Positions 39,976 to 43,991 of a stretch of DNA of 64,000 bases are shown here, piece after piece. The position numbers and the translations under genes were made by a program. The DNA is from Rothia nasisuis (GTDB lineage: Bacteria; Actinomycetota; Actinomycetes; Actinomycetales; Micrococcaceae), in the NCBI RefSeq assembly GCF_928381405.1, contig NZ_CAKMSB010000003.1:1-64000 (forward strand), written 5' to 3'. The notes beneath the pieces are model-generated. The model was not told the DNA's origin and ran no database searches. It saw only the letters and a list, made by a program, of their open reading frames with translations. How positions within the stretch are numbered: position 1 is the first letter of the stretch; every line of letters begins with the position of its first letter.

Positions 39976-39987
39976 GTACTTAAGTAC
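39976..39987. promoter_or_regulatory. Palindrome GTACTTAAGTAC, copy 1
   Basis: A perfect 12-bp palindrome, 265 bases before the secreted-protein gene at 40252. The same 12 bases occur at 41907-41918 before the peptide/two-component unit. Confidence 0.45.
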
Positions 39988-40251: not shown

Positions 40252-41034
40252 ATGAGGTTTCGAAAAATAATTTTAAGTGGGATTATTTCCGCATCTCTAG
40301 CTTTCACCCCCATTAGCTTTGCATCTACGCCTCAAGAGCCAATCACCGAAAAGAGTGTCCTTGAAGCTGTAGAAGAAAACACTAAATCACCCGGTGACAT
40401 AGAGTCAATCAGCAGGCTTTCTCCGAGTGAATCTATTGAACTAGATACCAAGGAAGGCCTTGTTGAAAATAAAACAACAGACCAATCTGTAACTGAGATT
40501 CTTTCCATCGAAAGGACTGATGGCTTTCAAATAGTTGGCGTAATCAATGAAAACCATCGGGCAGATTCCGAAATTCGAGTCAACTTCCCTGGCATGCACT
40601 TGCGACAAATTGAGGGTGGCACTGTCCTGGTTTCGAATGATCTATACGGAGAGCCTGAATATATTATTGATCCAGCTTGGGCGGAAGACTCCATAGGAAA
40701 AGAGATTGGAACCCATTTCGAAATTCAAGGCAGTGAATTGGTGCAAGTCATCAACTCGCATGAGAGTGATTATACAATTTATGCAGATCCATATGTTCGT
40801 TCTGGAAAGCTGAGCTTCTGGCCGTACACCTCCTACTGGGAGTATGTACTGAGCCCTGAGGAAACAAGAAAGGTTGCACTTGGCGCATCGCTTTGCAGTT
40901 TAATTCCACATCCTGCTGCCACAATTCCATGTGGTGGGGTTTCTGCAATAGCAAACTACGCCCTATCAGGTGGAAACTGTCTGCTAATCCGATACTTTGG
41001 ACCCCATGGGGTCCCACTCTCGGGAAGGTGTTAA
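40252..41034 (+). CDS. Secreted protein of unknown function, AT-rich
   Basis: 260 residues. Basic start MRFRK, hydrophobic core and a likely signal-peptidase site after SFAS (near 25), then an acidic region, a central FQIVGVINENHRADSEI strand-rich part, and a C-terminal hydrophobic domain (ALGASLCSLIPHPAATIPCGG) with four Cys ending GRC. Base composition is clearly below that of the surrounding genome, suggesting transfer. ATG 40252 has AAGGAAAAAAG before it. Its stop shares a base with the ATG of the next gene (TAATG). The pair could be an effector with its immunity or helper membrane protein; this is only inference from layout. Confidence 0.75.
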   Translation: MRFRKIILSGIISASLAFTPISFASTPQEPITEKSVLEAVEENTKSPGDIESISRLSPSESIELDTKEGLVENKTTDQSVTEILSIERTDGFQIVGVINENHRADSEIRVNFPGMHLRQIEGGTVLVSNDLYGEPEYIIDPAWAEDSIGKEIGTHFEIQGSELVQVINSHESDYTIYADPYVRSGKLSFWPYTSYWEYVLSPEETRKVALGASLCSLIPHPAATIPCGGVSAIANYALSGGNCLLIRYFGPHGVPLSGRC

Positions 41035-41345
41035 TGAAATTTTATATAATTCTCATTTCGATTATTTCCTACGTTGCCATTATTTTCTTGGGTGGAGGTG
41101 TTGAATCTTCAACTGCGAATATTTTAGTTCTCTCTTTGGCAACAGCTTGCACTGGGGCATTTCTTTGCCCTAAAAAAGAGGGCATTGGATATATTGCAAT
41201 TGCCAGCATTCTGCTTATATTTGGTGTATTATTTAATGAATTGATATACACTATAAACATTGTCCTTGTTGTAGTTGCATCATTTTCTATATGGAGATTG
41301 CAAGTGGCAAATAGAAGTCACCTCTACGATGAGGGCTCCCCATAA
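41034..41345 (+). CDS. Small three-segment membrane protein coupled to the secreted protein
   Basis: 103 residues starting at ATG 41034, which overlaps the upstream stop as TAATG. Three to four hydrophobic segments (about 3-20, 26-42, 49-65 and 70-85), a short loop CPKKEG, and a charged tail RLQVANRSHLYDEGS. AT-rich like its partner. A longer in-frame reading back to 40893 exists, but it would lie inside the upstream gene and lacks a ribosome site. No family recognised; size and coupling resemble bacteriocin-immunity proteins. Confidence 0.7.
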   Translation: MKFYIILISIISYVAIIFLGGGVESSTANILVLSLATACTGAFLCPKKEGIGYIAIASILLIFGVLFNELIYTINIVLVVVASFSIWRLQVANRSHLYDEGSP

Positions 41346-41563
41346 TGAGGCTTATTCAAAAGTAATCAGGCAACCCAGGCTCGCAGCAAAGCTGCTGGCT
41401 CGGATGAAATGAGCGGGTGCGAGCACACAAGAGCGAACGGAATCCGCCGTCAAGCGGGACGCCAACCGCCTGGATAAGCAACGATTTTTCGCGAAGCGAA
41501 AAAGACATCTGGCAATCATGCGAGTTAGGAGCGAACCAGGCCAGAGGGTTGGGCTTGTGCCCA
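41346..41563. repeat. Dispersed repeat copy D1
   Basis: It begins TGAGGCTTATTCAAAAG, followed by the family core CGCAGCAAAGCTGCTGGCTC, then diverges. It contains a small perfect hairpin TTTTTCGC-GAA-GCGAAAAA (41485-41503). No coding frame is convincing. Confidence 0.55.
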
Positions 41564-41565
41564 TT

Positions 41566-41711
41566 GAGGCTTATTCATAAGGGTAGGTGAAGCAGGTTCA
41601 CAGCGAAGCTGCTGGCTCGACGGCTGGCGTGAATCGCCTCGTGAGCGAAGCGAACCAGACGAGAGGGTCGGCAGCGAGCGTGAGCCTGCGGAACCCCTTA
41701 TGAATAAGCTT
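41566..41711. repeat. Dispersed repeat copy D2, complete with terminal inverted repeats
   Basis: About 146 bp. Left end GAGGCTTATTCATAAGGG and right end CCCCTTATGAATAAGCTTC are inverted repeats differing at one base over the overlap. The interior holds CACAGCGAAGCTGCTGGCTC and GAGCGTGAGCCTGCGG. It has the appearance of a small non-autonomous mobile element (MITE). Confidence 0.7.
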
Positions 41712-41712
41712 C

Positions 41713-41862
41713 ATTGAAGCCCGCAGATTATTTTCCTCGCAGGCTCGGATGGAGTCGGCAGCTTCCGAGCGCGCGAGGAAAGAAAGGCTGACGACGGAAT
41801 AGGCGAAGCCGCTGGGCTCCATCGAGCGTGAGCCTGCAGAACTGCTTATGAATAAGCTTCAG
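41713..41862. repeat. Dispersed repeat copy D3
   Basis: Right end GCTTATGAATAAGCTTC (to 41860) and interior GGCGAAGCCGCTGGGCTCC, CATCGAGCGTGAGCCTGC match the family. The left end is altered (TTGAAGCCCGCAG). It lies in tandem with D1 and D2. Confidence 0.65.
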
Positions 41863-41896: not shown

Positions 41897-41928
41897 AGCG
41901 AAGTTAGTACTTAAGTACTGACTTCGCT
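41897..41928. promoter_or_regulatory. 32-bp near-perfect palindrome containing GTACTTAAGTAC
   Basis: AGCGAAGTTAGTACTT and its mirror half (41913-41928) differ at one pair. The central GTACTTAAGTAC (41907-41918) repeats the motif at 39976-39987. It lies 76 bases before the peptide gene at 42004 and is a candidate operator of the response regulator. Confidence 0.5.
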
Positions 41929-42003: not shown

Positions 42004-42171
42004 ATGAAATTAGCTATAATATCACTACTGATTACACTAGCTTCCTTACCTTCACCCGTAACTCCCCTGTCAGATTTCAATAGCAACCACCAAGCATCTT
42101 TAGCCAGTCCTGCCGTCCTGTACTGGACATGCCCCCACGTGCTTGAGGTTCTACGACTTTGTAAAAAATAG
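42004..42171 (+). CDS. 55-residue secreted peptide, candidate signal for the adjacent two-component system
   Basis: Too short for usual gene callers. ATG 42004 (GAAGAG eight bases upstream) opens a 55-codon frame ending at TAG 42169-42171, eight bases before the kinase ATG. The N-terminus MKLAIISLLITLASLPS is a typical signal peptide. The rest holds a possible SLA-type cleavage near residue 34 that would release about 21 residues, beginning SPAVLYW and containing two Cys nine residues apart (TCPHVLEVLRLCKK), able to form a disulfide ring. AT-rich. Position and features suggest a peptide pheromone or sensed ligand; alternatively it is an accessory lipoprotein-like or decayed fragment. Confidence 0.55.
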   Translation: MKLAIISLLITLASLPSPVTPLSDFNSNHQASLASPAVLYWTCPHVLEVLRLCKK

Positions 42172-42179
42172 AGACTCAC

Positions 42180-43328
42180 ATGAACCACCTCGAAATCGCC
42201 CGCAGCTTCCCTGCCATAAAGCCAACAGGGAAGCTGCGCCTTACCTTACTCTTCGTAACCGTTCTGGTGACCCTTGGCGACTTTCTACAGGTACCCCATC
42301 TTTCTGGAGCAGACCGTCCCTATAGCCTGGGGTCTCTACTACTTCTTACCCTCCTGCTTTACACTCTCTACGCGAAGAGAACCCTCACCCCCTATATCTT
42401 CTGCGCAGGACTCTTAGTCAGCACCATTCATATTCCTGATGATAGTTTCTTCTATCTAGGAATATTTTTTGGGGTTCCTCTAACAGTTTTTCTAGCTAGC
42501 TCAAGGCAGCTTATTTTATTAGGGATTAGCGTACTTTTATTTTTCTTCAGCGGGTTTGTAAATCAAGATTTTCTCAGCTGGCTCATCGTGTCATTAGCCT
42601 TCTGTGTTCTTCTATTTTTTGTTCCCCTAGCACTACGAATCTCCTGGGAGCAGAAAAAGATCCTGGCTCAGGAATACGCCGACTACAAAGAACAGGTAGC
42701 TGAATCCAACCGCGCCCTAGCCCGCGAACTCCACGACACCGTAGCCCGGCACATCAGCGTCATCGGCCTCACCACCGGCCAAGGACTCGACGCAACCGAC
42801 CCCAGCGGCAAAGACGCCGCCCTGCACACCATCGAAGAACACAGCCACAAAGCCCTCACAGACATGCGCTTGCTCATCCGCACCACCCGAGGCGACACCG
42901 ACCCCACAGCCCTACCCCAGACGTCCGCACCCACCATCAACCTCACCCAAACCCTAACCCAAGCCCGCAAAGACCTCACCGACCACGGCTTCACCCTGAA
43001 CGAAAACATCACCATCACCGAAGCAGACCTACCCGACGGCGTGCGCCCCACCTTCCACAAACTCATCCAAGAAATCTGCCACAACGCCAAAAAATACGCC
43101 CAACCAGGGTGCACCATCACCGTCACCGCCAAACCCAACCTCACCGGCGTCACCGTCACCACCTCCAACCCCGCCGCACCCAGCAACCCCAAAAAACGCA
43201 CCCGGGGCACCGGCTACGGGCTCGTCGGCATAGGTGAGCGCATCCGCGCCCTCGGCGGAACCATGCACTACGGAGTAACAGACACAACCTGGAACCTCAC
43301 CGTTCACCTACCCCTCGCCACCGCCTAG
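42180..43328 (+). CDS. Membrane sensor histidine kinase, NarL-partner type (HisKA_3)
   Basis: 382 residues. Five or six membrane segments occupy 20-155 with almost no extracellular domain, a layout used by peptide-sensing and membrane-stress kinases. A coiled linker (156-180) leads to the H-box RELHDTVARH (His185), then the ATPase domain with EICHNAKKYA (Asn302) and GTGYGLVGIGERI (G-box near 345). DNA coding for the membrane part is AT-rich; from about 42690 the coding sequence switches to C-ending, GC-rich codons, so the sensor half may have been replaced. Follows the peptide gene by eight bases and precedes its regulator by twelve. Confidence 0.88.
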   Translation: MNHLEIARSFPAIKPTGKLRLTLLFVTVLVTLGDFLQVPHLSGADRPYSLGSLLLLTLLLYTLYAKRTLTPYIFCAGLLVSTIHIPDDSFFYLGIFFGVPLTVFLASSRQLILLGISVLLFFFSGFVNQDFLSWLIVSLAFCVLLFFVPLALRISWEQKKILAQEYADYKEQVAESNRALARELHDTVARHISVIGLTTGQGLDATDPSGKDAALHTIEEHSHKALTDMRLLIRTTRGDTDPTALPQTSAPTINLTQTLTQARKDLTDHGFTLNENITITEADLPDGVRPTFHKLIQEICHNAKKYAQPGCTITVTAKPNLTGVTVTTSNPAAPSNPKKRTRGTGYGLVGIGERIRALGGTMHYGVTDTTWNLTVHLPLATA

Positions 43329-43340
43329 AAAGCACCCACC

Positions 43341-43991
43341 ATGCACCAACCCACCGTAGCCCTCATCGAAGACGATCCCGACTTCAACGAACTCCTTAGC
43401 CTCTACATCAACAACGACCCCGACCTCAACCTCATCGCCACAGGACGCAACGGGCAAGAAGCCATCACTATCGCCAACACCCTACGCCCCGACGTCTTCC
43501 TCATGGACCTCAACATGCCCGTCATGGACGGCATAGAAGCCACCCAGCAGATCCTGGCAACCCACCCAGACACCAAAATCATCGCCGTCACCACCTTCGA
43601 TAGCTACAGCTACGTCAGCCAAGCCCTCGCCACAGGCGTCCACGGCTACCTACTCAAAAACTCCCGCGCCAAAGAAATCAAACAAGCAGTCACAGCAGCG
43701 GTTGAAGGGCGGGCCATCATCGACCGGCGGGCCCTCGCCAGCCTGGTCATCTCCATGAACCTCACCCAGCCACCCCAGGGCGACCCCTGGAGCGAACTCA
43801 ACACCACAGAGCAGGCCATTACCAAACTCGTCTGCCTAGGGCACACCAACCAGGAAATCGCGCAGGAACTGAACTACTCACTCTCAACCGTCAAAAACAC
43901 GCTCTCACAGGTCTACAAAAAGATGGGCGTCACCACCCGCACCCAGCTCCTGGTACACGCCGGGCACCACAACTTCCCGGTACTCGGTTAG
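43341..43991 (+). CDS. NarL/FixJ-family response regulator
   Basis: 216 residues. Receiver domain 1-120 with acidic pair EDD (10-12), phosphoacceptor Asp56 in FLMDLNMPVMDG, switch Thr in VTTFDS and Lys in YLLKNS; LuxR-type DNA-binding helix-turn-helix at about 148-205 (ITKLVCLGHTNQEIAQEL, STVKNTLSQVYKKMG). Transcribed with the sensor kinase (12-base gap). The likely targets are the palindromes upstream of 42004 and perhaps 40252. Codon choice (CTC, GAA, AAA) differs from the CTG/GAG/AAG habit of neighbouring genes. Confidence 0.92.
   Translation: MHQPTVALIEDDPDFNELLSLYINNDPDLNLIATGRNGQEAITIANTLRPDVFLMDLNMPVMDGIEATQQILATHPDTKIIAVTTFDSYSYVSQALATGVHGYLLKNSRAKEIKQAVTAAVEGRAIIDRRALASLVISMNLTQPPQGDPWSELNTTEQAITKLVCLGHTNQEIAQELNYSLSTVKNTLSQVYKKMGVTTRTQLLVHAGHHNFPVLG

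Follow-up and report, generated by a model that had tools for sequence, protein, structure and literature searches.

A small, overlooked Rothia gene probably encodes a secreted peptide signal for the adjacent sensor kinase, together with which it appears to have been swapped among related strains

The window, that is, the whole stretch of DNA analysed, comprises 64,000 nucleotides of contig C3 of the 2.7 Mb genome of Rothia nasisuis (G000). It contains a 55-codon frame directly upstream of a sensor kinase gene and a response regulator gene, which the original prediction had read as a candidate peptide-pheromone system. The features at and around this locus are as follows.

39976..39987, no strand: putative regulator site; palindrome GTACTTAAGTAC, 276 bp upstream of the gene for an exported 260-aa protein
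40252..41034, plus strand: exported-type protein of 260 aa; signal-like start, prodomain common to its family, individual C-terminus with Cys; possible target that reads as bacteriocin-like
41043..41345, plus strand: membrane-type protein of 100 aa directly downstream of the exported protein; possible immunity protein, a role suggested by position
41907..41918, no strand: putative regulator site; palindrome GTACTTAAGTAC that begins 97 bp upstream of the peptide gene
42004..42171, plus strand: peptide gene, ATG start, 55 codons; its 55-aa product is the precursor of a putative secreted signal with two Cys (C-x9-C-K)
42180..42623, plus strand: membrane-helix half of the kinase (sensor), which is exchanged along with the peptide; breakpoint near residue 148
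42624..43328, plus strand: catalytic half of the kinase, HisKA_3 and weak HATPase_c
43341..43991, plus strand: NarL-type response regulator of 216 aa; receiver (Response_reg) and GerE in Pfam

The product of the small gene is MKLAIISLLITLASLPSPVTPLSDFNSNHQASLASPAVLYWTCPHVLEVLRLCKK, with the C-terminal end CPHVLEVLRLCKK; its N-terminus is hydrophobic, begins with basic residues and resembles a signal peptide. The stop codon ends at 42171 and the kinase ATG lies at 42180, leaving the predicted eight bases between them, and the two late Cys residues, expected in the last 14 residues, both sit in the last 13. In the window's own copy, the plausible cleavage site that had also been claimed is weak; relatives show a clear one (PSYA↓QTE, PAASA↓YG). 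Cleavage sites and signal peptides were judged by eye, and helices by crude hydropathy.

The kinase (42180-43328) is 382 aa long and matches HisKA_3 at 6e-10; HATPase_c stays below its cut-off, at 23.4 of 26.4 bits. Its input region was described beforehand as consisting of membrane helices only, and indeed no accepted Pfam domain is found in the first 160 residues, where the hydropathy peaks lie. Six crude peaks were counted in the window copy and 4, 6-7 and 5 in three relatives; because these counts differ, the number of helices is uncertain. The relatives of solved structure, found by sequence, are DesK-type kinases (five sequences) that match in the dimerisation region only. Forty-six plasmid records match the kinase, all at less than 60% identity among the matches listed (10 of 46). 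The regulator that follows carries Response_reg and GerE and has NarL as its best NCBIfam match, below the cut-off of that model, which agrees with its earlier description as NarL-type.

Frames comparable to the peptide gene were sought upstream of the kinase in real and shuffled DNA, using as criteria 40-75 codons, a hydrophobic beginning with a basic residue close by, two Cys towards the end and a stop just before the kinase. Eight of the 10 real loci tested have such a frame; of 20,000 first-order Markov shuffles per locus, between 2 and 20 produced one. These shuffles, together with conservation, rule out a chance frame. Peptide matches at E < 1e-6 in the Rothia genomes lie solely next to this kinase, and searches for the peptide elsewhere in the genomes returned weak matches only. 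None of eight peptides matches a known family in Pfam, nor does the window peptide in NCBIfam. Coding selection, on which the reality of the frame had been made to depend, is indicated by dN below dS in three informative pairs: 0.51/2.41 between the window and G012, where dS is near saturation, 0.11/0.55 between G032 and G033, and 0.11/0.18, weakly below 1, between G014 and G027, the numbers being small throughout. The peptide genes of G012 and G002 differ by one base.

Our survey covered 35 Rothia genomes, 12 of which contain a match to the kinase sensor; in a wider set of 395 genomes of the family the window-type sensor model matched 12, all of them Rothia. A comparable frame stands directly before the orthologous kinase in eight of these 12 genomes, which represent four sensor types, so that, at the level of sequence, the gene is conserved as a companion of the kinase; in the others it is truncated (two), decayed (one) or not recognisable (one). 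The peptides can be sorted by their ends into groups, which we call pherotypes. Pherotype I (the window genome, G002 and G012) ends in CP[HK][VF]LE[VH]LRLCKK, pherotype II (G014 and G027) in CKILQHIPPFCKQAHQ, pherotype III (G016) in CYPWLERLGFCKNK and pherotype IV (G032 and G033) in CQ[FW]LPFICR. The Cys residues are nine residues apart and followed by Lys in pherotypes I-III, and six apart and followed by Arg in pherotype IV. The G014 frame begins with TTG, and in G027 the peptide stop overlaps the kinase start by 4 bp.

Some lineages seem to have lost the signal. In G026 and G005 the peptide frame stops right after the signal-like part and the kinase is open; between these two genomes dN/dS is 0.125/0.315 for the sensor and 0.028/0.146 for the catalytic part. 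In G011 the first Cys is absent and the kinase sensor is split over two frames. G028, which is not among the 12, retains a kinase fragment at the start of a contig. Open kinases in lineages without a mature peptide fit listeners; they could also mean another input. G007 possesses two divergent sensor homologues, one of the kinases being broken, and no upstream frame meeting the criteria above; frames of 73 residues (two late Cys) and 58 residues (one), which end about 38 and 10 bases before the presumed kinase starts, both overlap the palindrome and were judged to be chance. In this genome (L044, L047) the palindrome-preceded divergent kinases lie back to back with an exported protein that looks, by eye, like a papain-like amidase.

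The distribution of identity along the operon is the most telling feature of the system. Compared with four close relatives, the window shows 93-97% identity in the catalytic half and 95-96% in the regulator, as against 29-31% in the sensor half, and the peptide is different or lost; for G026 alone the amino acid values are 30% (sensor half), 97% (catalytic half) and 96% (regulator). The same holds for all 12 pairs formed between the three pherotype I genomes and the four with a type II kinase, with 27-31% in the sensor, 92-98% in the catalytic half and 95-99% in the regulator. Along the kinase gene in three I-II pairs, nucleotide identity is 25-47% up to the end of the last helix, where it climbs through 81-82% to 95-98%; between the window and G026 the values per 20 codons at this point are 38, 81 and 98. 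The small gene type goes with the sensor type. The flanks tell a different story: G012 and G026 share 95.4, 97.5 and 96.5% nucleotide identity in the lactone-oxidase-like, ferredoxin-reductase-like and molybdopterin oxidoreductase genes and 43% in the sensor, whereas for G012 and the window the corresponding flank values are 80.5, 95.9 and 90.0% and the sensor value is 87%. Since the flanking genes disagree with the sensor type, the sequences argue that peptide and sensor moved as a cassette. The proposed comparison of variability has therefore come out in favour of the prediction, the peptide and the membrane part of the kinase varying together while the rest of the kinase and the regulator are near-identical. 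To judge from the alignments, exchange of the peptide with the sensor half alone has the look of signal-receptor specificity groups, and related strains appear to have swapped signal and receptor together. In G032, a 79-residue remnant of a window-type regulator (73% identical) lies just upstream of the type IV system.

The extent of the module shows in G020, a close relative whose reductase is 97% identical. The system is missing there, and the lipoprotein gene adjoins the molybdopterin-oxidoreductase gene; alignment of G020 with G026 DNA is lost 15 bases ahead of the palindrome and picks up again at the penultimate base of the regulator gene. Here the module has either been lost as a unit or never arrived.

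Exact copies of GTACTTAAGTAC number four in the window's own genome. These lie before the peptide gene, before the gene for the 260-aa exported protein, about 110 bp before a second member of the exported-protein family on contig 11, and inside a coding frame which by eye resembles a cytochrome-complex subunit. The position of the palindrome relative to the peptide gene is nearly constant in the sequences, at 96-99 bp in seven loci (the window, G026, G005, G012 and G027, plus G014 and G011 with a variant core) despite differing peptides; in G007 it precedes the kinase starts themselves by 101 and 130 bp. The pattern AGTACTTAAGTACY occurs in 12 of the 35 genomes, and a reversed control pattern in one. 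It is found in 11 of the 13 genomes with the system or part of it (counting G028 with its kinase fragment, the decayed G011, and G007) versus 1 of the 22 without, for a Fisher p of 2e-6 that ignores shared ancestry. Nine genomes carry a copy in another conserved setting, adjoining a gene of 305-325 aa that is siderophore-interacting-like by eye; in G011 the contig ends at this copy and only the adjoining bases match. G011, G028 and G020 have the pattern in this other setting only, G020 being without the system. When the other-setting copy is left out, the pattern remains in 9 of 13 versus 0 of 22 genomes, G014 being counted by its old-promoter copy since the present one has the core variant. 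The conserved copies in the other setting imply that some palindromes have nothing to do with the system or answer to a different regulator. The pherotype IV genomes, in which the regulator is about 50% identical, lack the pattern.

In G016 the palindrome lies before an operon of lipoprotein, adaptor and MacB-like ABC genes (by eye), and not before the peptide gene; a 666-aa ABC frame similar to that of G016 is found near the contig 11 palindrome site of the window's own genome (regions L042:5906-10027 and L077). Imperfect repeats fill positions 41360-41861 of the window, between the exported-protein pair and the peptide promoter, and include a 42-base repeat at 41672-41713 and 41820-41861 (90% identical).

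A second palindrome stretch lies upstream of the present one in G012 and G002 (about 440 bp) and in G014 (about 1250 bp), and resembles the stretch before the null allele in G005 and G026. It is a probable footprint of an earlier promoter. Weak upstream matches in the three genomes were considered as peptide remnants and rejected; the shared DNA ends about 25-30 bases past the palindrome, and we therefore claim a promoter remnant only. Between the old and the present palindromes all three genomes carry the same membrane-type frame of 40 residues, with a hairpin-forming stretch after it, and in G014 a 59-residue hydrophobic frame adjoins it. The copies of the 40-residue frame are located as follows.

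L053:11102-11224, plus strand: 40-residue membrane-type frame
L052:9193-9315, minus strand: 40-residue membrane-type frame
L049:12933-13055, plus strand: 40-residue membrane-type frame

The protein encoded at 40252-41034 has no match in Pfam or NCBIfam. Its family is present at 15 places in 10 of the 35 Rothia genomes; the members share a prodomain (..APWAxDAxGxxVPTxFEI..YPIxADP), and their C-termini fall by eye into about eight types. A small hydrophobic frame begins within 60 bases of the exported gene at eight of the 15 places; at L119 the next frame does not look membrane-bound, and at the other places none is listed. Weak relatives of the shared part are encoded in seven plasmid records of Streptomyces and Rhodococcus, one of them annotated with a TNT domain. 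By their sequences, the exported and membrane proteins look like toxin-immunity or bacteriocin pairs. The exact palindrome lies upstream at only four of the 15 places, of which the window genome accounts for two and G002 and G012 for one apiece; both family members of the window genome are thus preceded by it. G014 and G011 have a different exported protein with a Tat-like start in the same position, transcribed away from the peptide gene. The sharing of the palindrome hints, only indirectly, that the system may control bacteriocin-like genes.

The same layout was sought at other Rothia kinases. By the criteria given above, 5 of 67 have such an upstream frame and 62 do not; these are 18 more distant kinases (one positive, in G018) and 49 further ones (four positive) among the matches listed, many of the 67 being orthologous to each other. 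That the frame is a feature of kinases in general can be rejected in part, as 62 of 67 are without it and the five positives are themselves peptide-kinase loci. Two of the 62 (in G012 and G026) are damaged copies of a second locus, designated B, which is found in six Rothia genomes (regions L180, L182, L185, L187 and L226-L231). Intact locus B peptide frames occur before the kinase in G002, G014, G032 and G033; they are of the signal type and end in WLC[KR][ST]GICD (example MKNIRKALAVTSIVSALTLGFSPAHAATLPQDTDVKASPASASSMSPTFFHWLCKSGICD). About 45 bases separate peptide and kinase genes, and a 220-aa regulator gene lies downstream in all six copies. A sensor swap was not found at locus B, the aligned first-half blocks being 70-100% identical. 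In G012 the second peptide Cys is changed to Tyr, and in G026 a frame that reads as transposase-like takes the place of the peptide gene, so peptide loss with the kinase kept also recurs. A third pair, in G018 (L195, G018:C7:150000-163000), has a peptide ending in YSWVCSVLRLCR directly before the kinase, with the regulator gene upstream on the other strand. Both loci were searched for within Rothia. The layout, as read from these sequences, therefore recurs with unrelated C-terminal ends, and its recurrence at two further kinase loci supports the pheromone reading.

We think it likely that the locus is a pherotype-switching peptide-pheromone two-component system, working like ComQXPA without being a member of that family. 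According to this model, the precursor would be exported through Sec and its C-terminal 13-17 or so residues, with two Cys nine apart that probably form a disulfide loop, would be released outside by processing. The released peptide would bind the polytopic sensor half of the kinase whose gene follows directly, and the kinase would phosphorylate the NarL-type regulator. The latter is predicted to recognise AGTACTTAAGTACT, the palindrome in front of the peptide operon and of exported bacteriocin-like genes; these would form its regulon. Peptide and sensor would evolve and move as one specificity cassette, so that strains fall into at least four pherotypes. The pheromone interpretation in the original prediction gains support from the conserved frame, from dN below dS and from the co-variation of peptide and sensor; an overlooked tiny Rothia gene probably makes a secreted peptide signal that is read by the sensor protein of the adjacent gene.

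Some findings count against this model: the two divergent sensors of G007 have no qualifying frame before them; the palindrome pattern is missing from the pherotype IV genomes, stands in the other setting in nine genomes and in one case sits within a coding frame; dN/dS for the G027-G014 peptides is only weakly below 1; and the locus B sensors show no swap. Other explanations must also be weighed. The peptide might never be released and might act in the same cell as a small membrane partner subunit tuning its own kinase. Tight coupling and co-exchange with the sensor would follow from a membrane complex as well, and the cleavage site of the window's own copy is weak; nevertheless, the clear AxA-like sites in the G027, G014 and G016 copies and at locus B, the C-terminal two-Cys block after a variable linker, and the lineages in which the kinase is still open though the mature part is gone all speak against such a partner, and we regard it as unlikely. 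It is quite improbable that the peptide is instead a small bacteriocin which the kinase-regulator pair senses, or against which it controls self-protection: peptide and kinase are not separated by any gene, the boundary of the exchanged unit falls within the kinase, past its sensor, and the C-terminal block is very short for a bacteriocin, even though the peptide is small, of the secreted type and has two Cys, and bacteriocin-like genes are nearby in the window, G014 and G011.

A leader whose translation couples or attenuates that of the kinase, its product being functionless, would account for the close spacing and for the stop-start overlap in G027. It would leave unexplained the signal-like start, the Cys spacing conserved within pherotypes I-III and the dN below dS; G026 and G005 dispense with the 3′ part and keep the kinase open, and locus B has its gap of about 45 bases, for which reasons such a leader is highly improbable.

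In favouring a peptide pheromone, we put forward more tentatively, with rather less than even confidence, the wider claim of a new actinobacterial signalling class: Sec-exported, disulfide-looped pheromones without a dedicated maturation enzyme, at no fewer than three Rothia kinase loci, with one kinase's sensor swapped along with the signal, signal-null listeners and footprints of replaced alleles, and control of a polymorphic exported bacteriocin-like set. Pherotype-switching peptide communication is best known from Firmicutes. A search of the literature on peptide pheromones, quorum sensing, agr and bacteriocin two-component systems in Rothia, Micrococcaceae and actinobacteria, covering titles and the beginnings of abstracts, with subscription journals mostly outside its coverage, yielded no description of such a system; a paper on competence in Micrococcus luteus (PMC8467076) was, from the portion consulted, set aside as not relevant. 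A 2016 review gives quorum sensing as reported in 25 of 342 actinobacterial genera and mentions in passing cyclic or modified peptides as signals, with Rothia unmentioned in its text (PMC4748050); peptide signals in Actinomycetota are therefore not in themselves new. What the locus offers is a compact, testable candidate system in an animal-associated actinobacterium, in which natural allele swaps, signal losses and one clean absence amount to experiments already set up by nature, on how specific signal and receptor are for each other and on strains that listen but do not speak.

No known pheromone family had seemed to fit, and membership in the double-glycine, agr and ComQXPA systems does fail on their defining features. 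Like the double-glycine systems of streptococci and lactobacilli, the Rothia locus links peptide, kinase and regulator with bacteriocin-like genes. Those systems use other classes of kinase and regulator, none of the eight Rothia peptides contains GG, and the double-glycine exporter domain Peptidase_C39 has no match in the window's own genome (the control matched 8 of 14). Unlike the thiolactone of agr, the Rothia peptides have two Cys, and the HisKA_3 kinase and GerE regulator are not of the AgrC and LytTR classes. AgrB has no match in the window's own genome at E 0.001, the control having matched 1 of 14 named genomes, none over the cut-off. A short, probably cyclic peptide, a polytopic kinase and specificity groups are common to the Rothia locus and agr (AgrBDCA) of staphylococci (compare PMC10482373).

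ComQXPA of Bacillus (ComX, ComP, ComA) stands nearer. ComX is prenylated on a C-terminal Trp and has no signal peptide, unlike the Rothia peptides, which have a signal-peptide-like start and two conserved Cys, Trp not being conserved; when 13 window frames in and near the locus were scanned against Pfam, no prenyl synthase corresponding to ComQ appeared, and four of the 13, including the peptide and the exported protein, match nothing there. Rothia also differs in belonging to the Micrococcaceae, Actinomycetota. ComP belongs to the HisKA_3-type kinases and ComA to the NarL-type regulators, and the Rothia locus likewise has a signal gene before a polytopic HisKA_3-type kinase and a NarL/GerE-type regulator. 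According to a study of ComQXPA (PMC12935306), the signal-receptor region is polymorphic and sets the pherotype, and wild isolates often carry disruptive mutations in comP; in Rothia, too, signal gene and kinase sensor form a polymorphic block that is exchanged together. By analogy, ComQXPA is the closest counterpart of the Rothia system, in a similar working principle rather than in membership.
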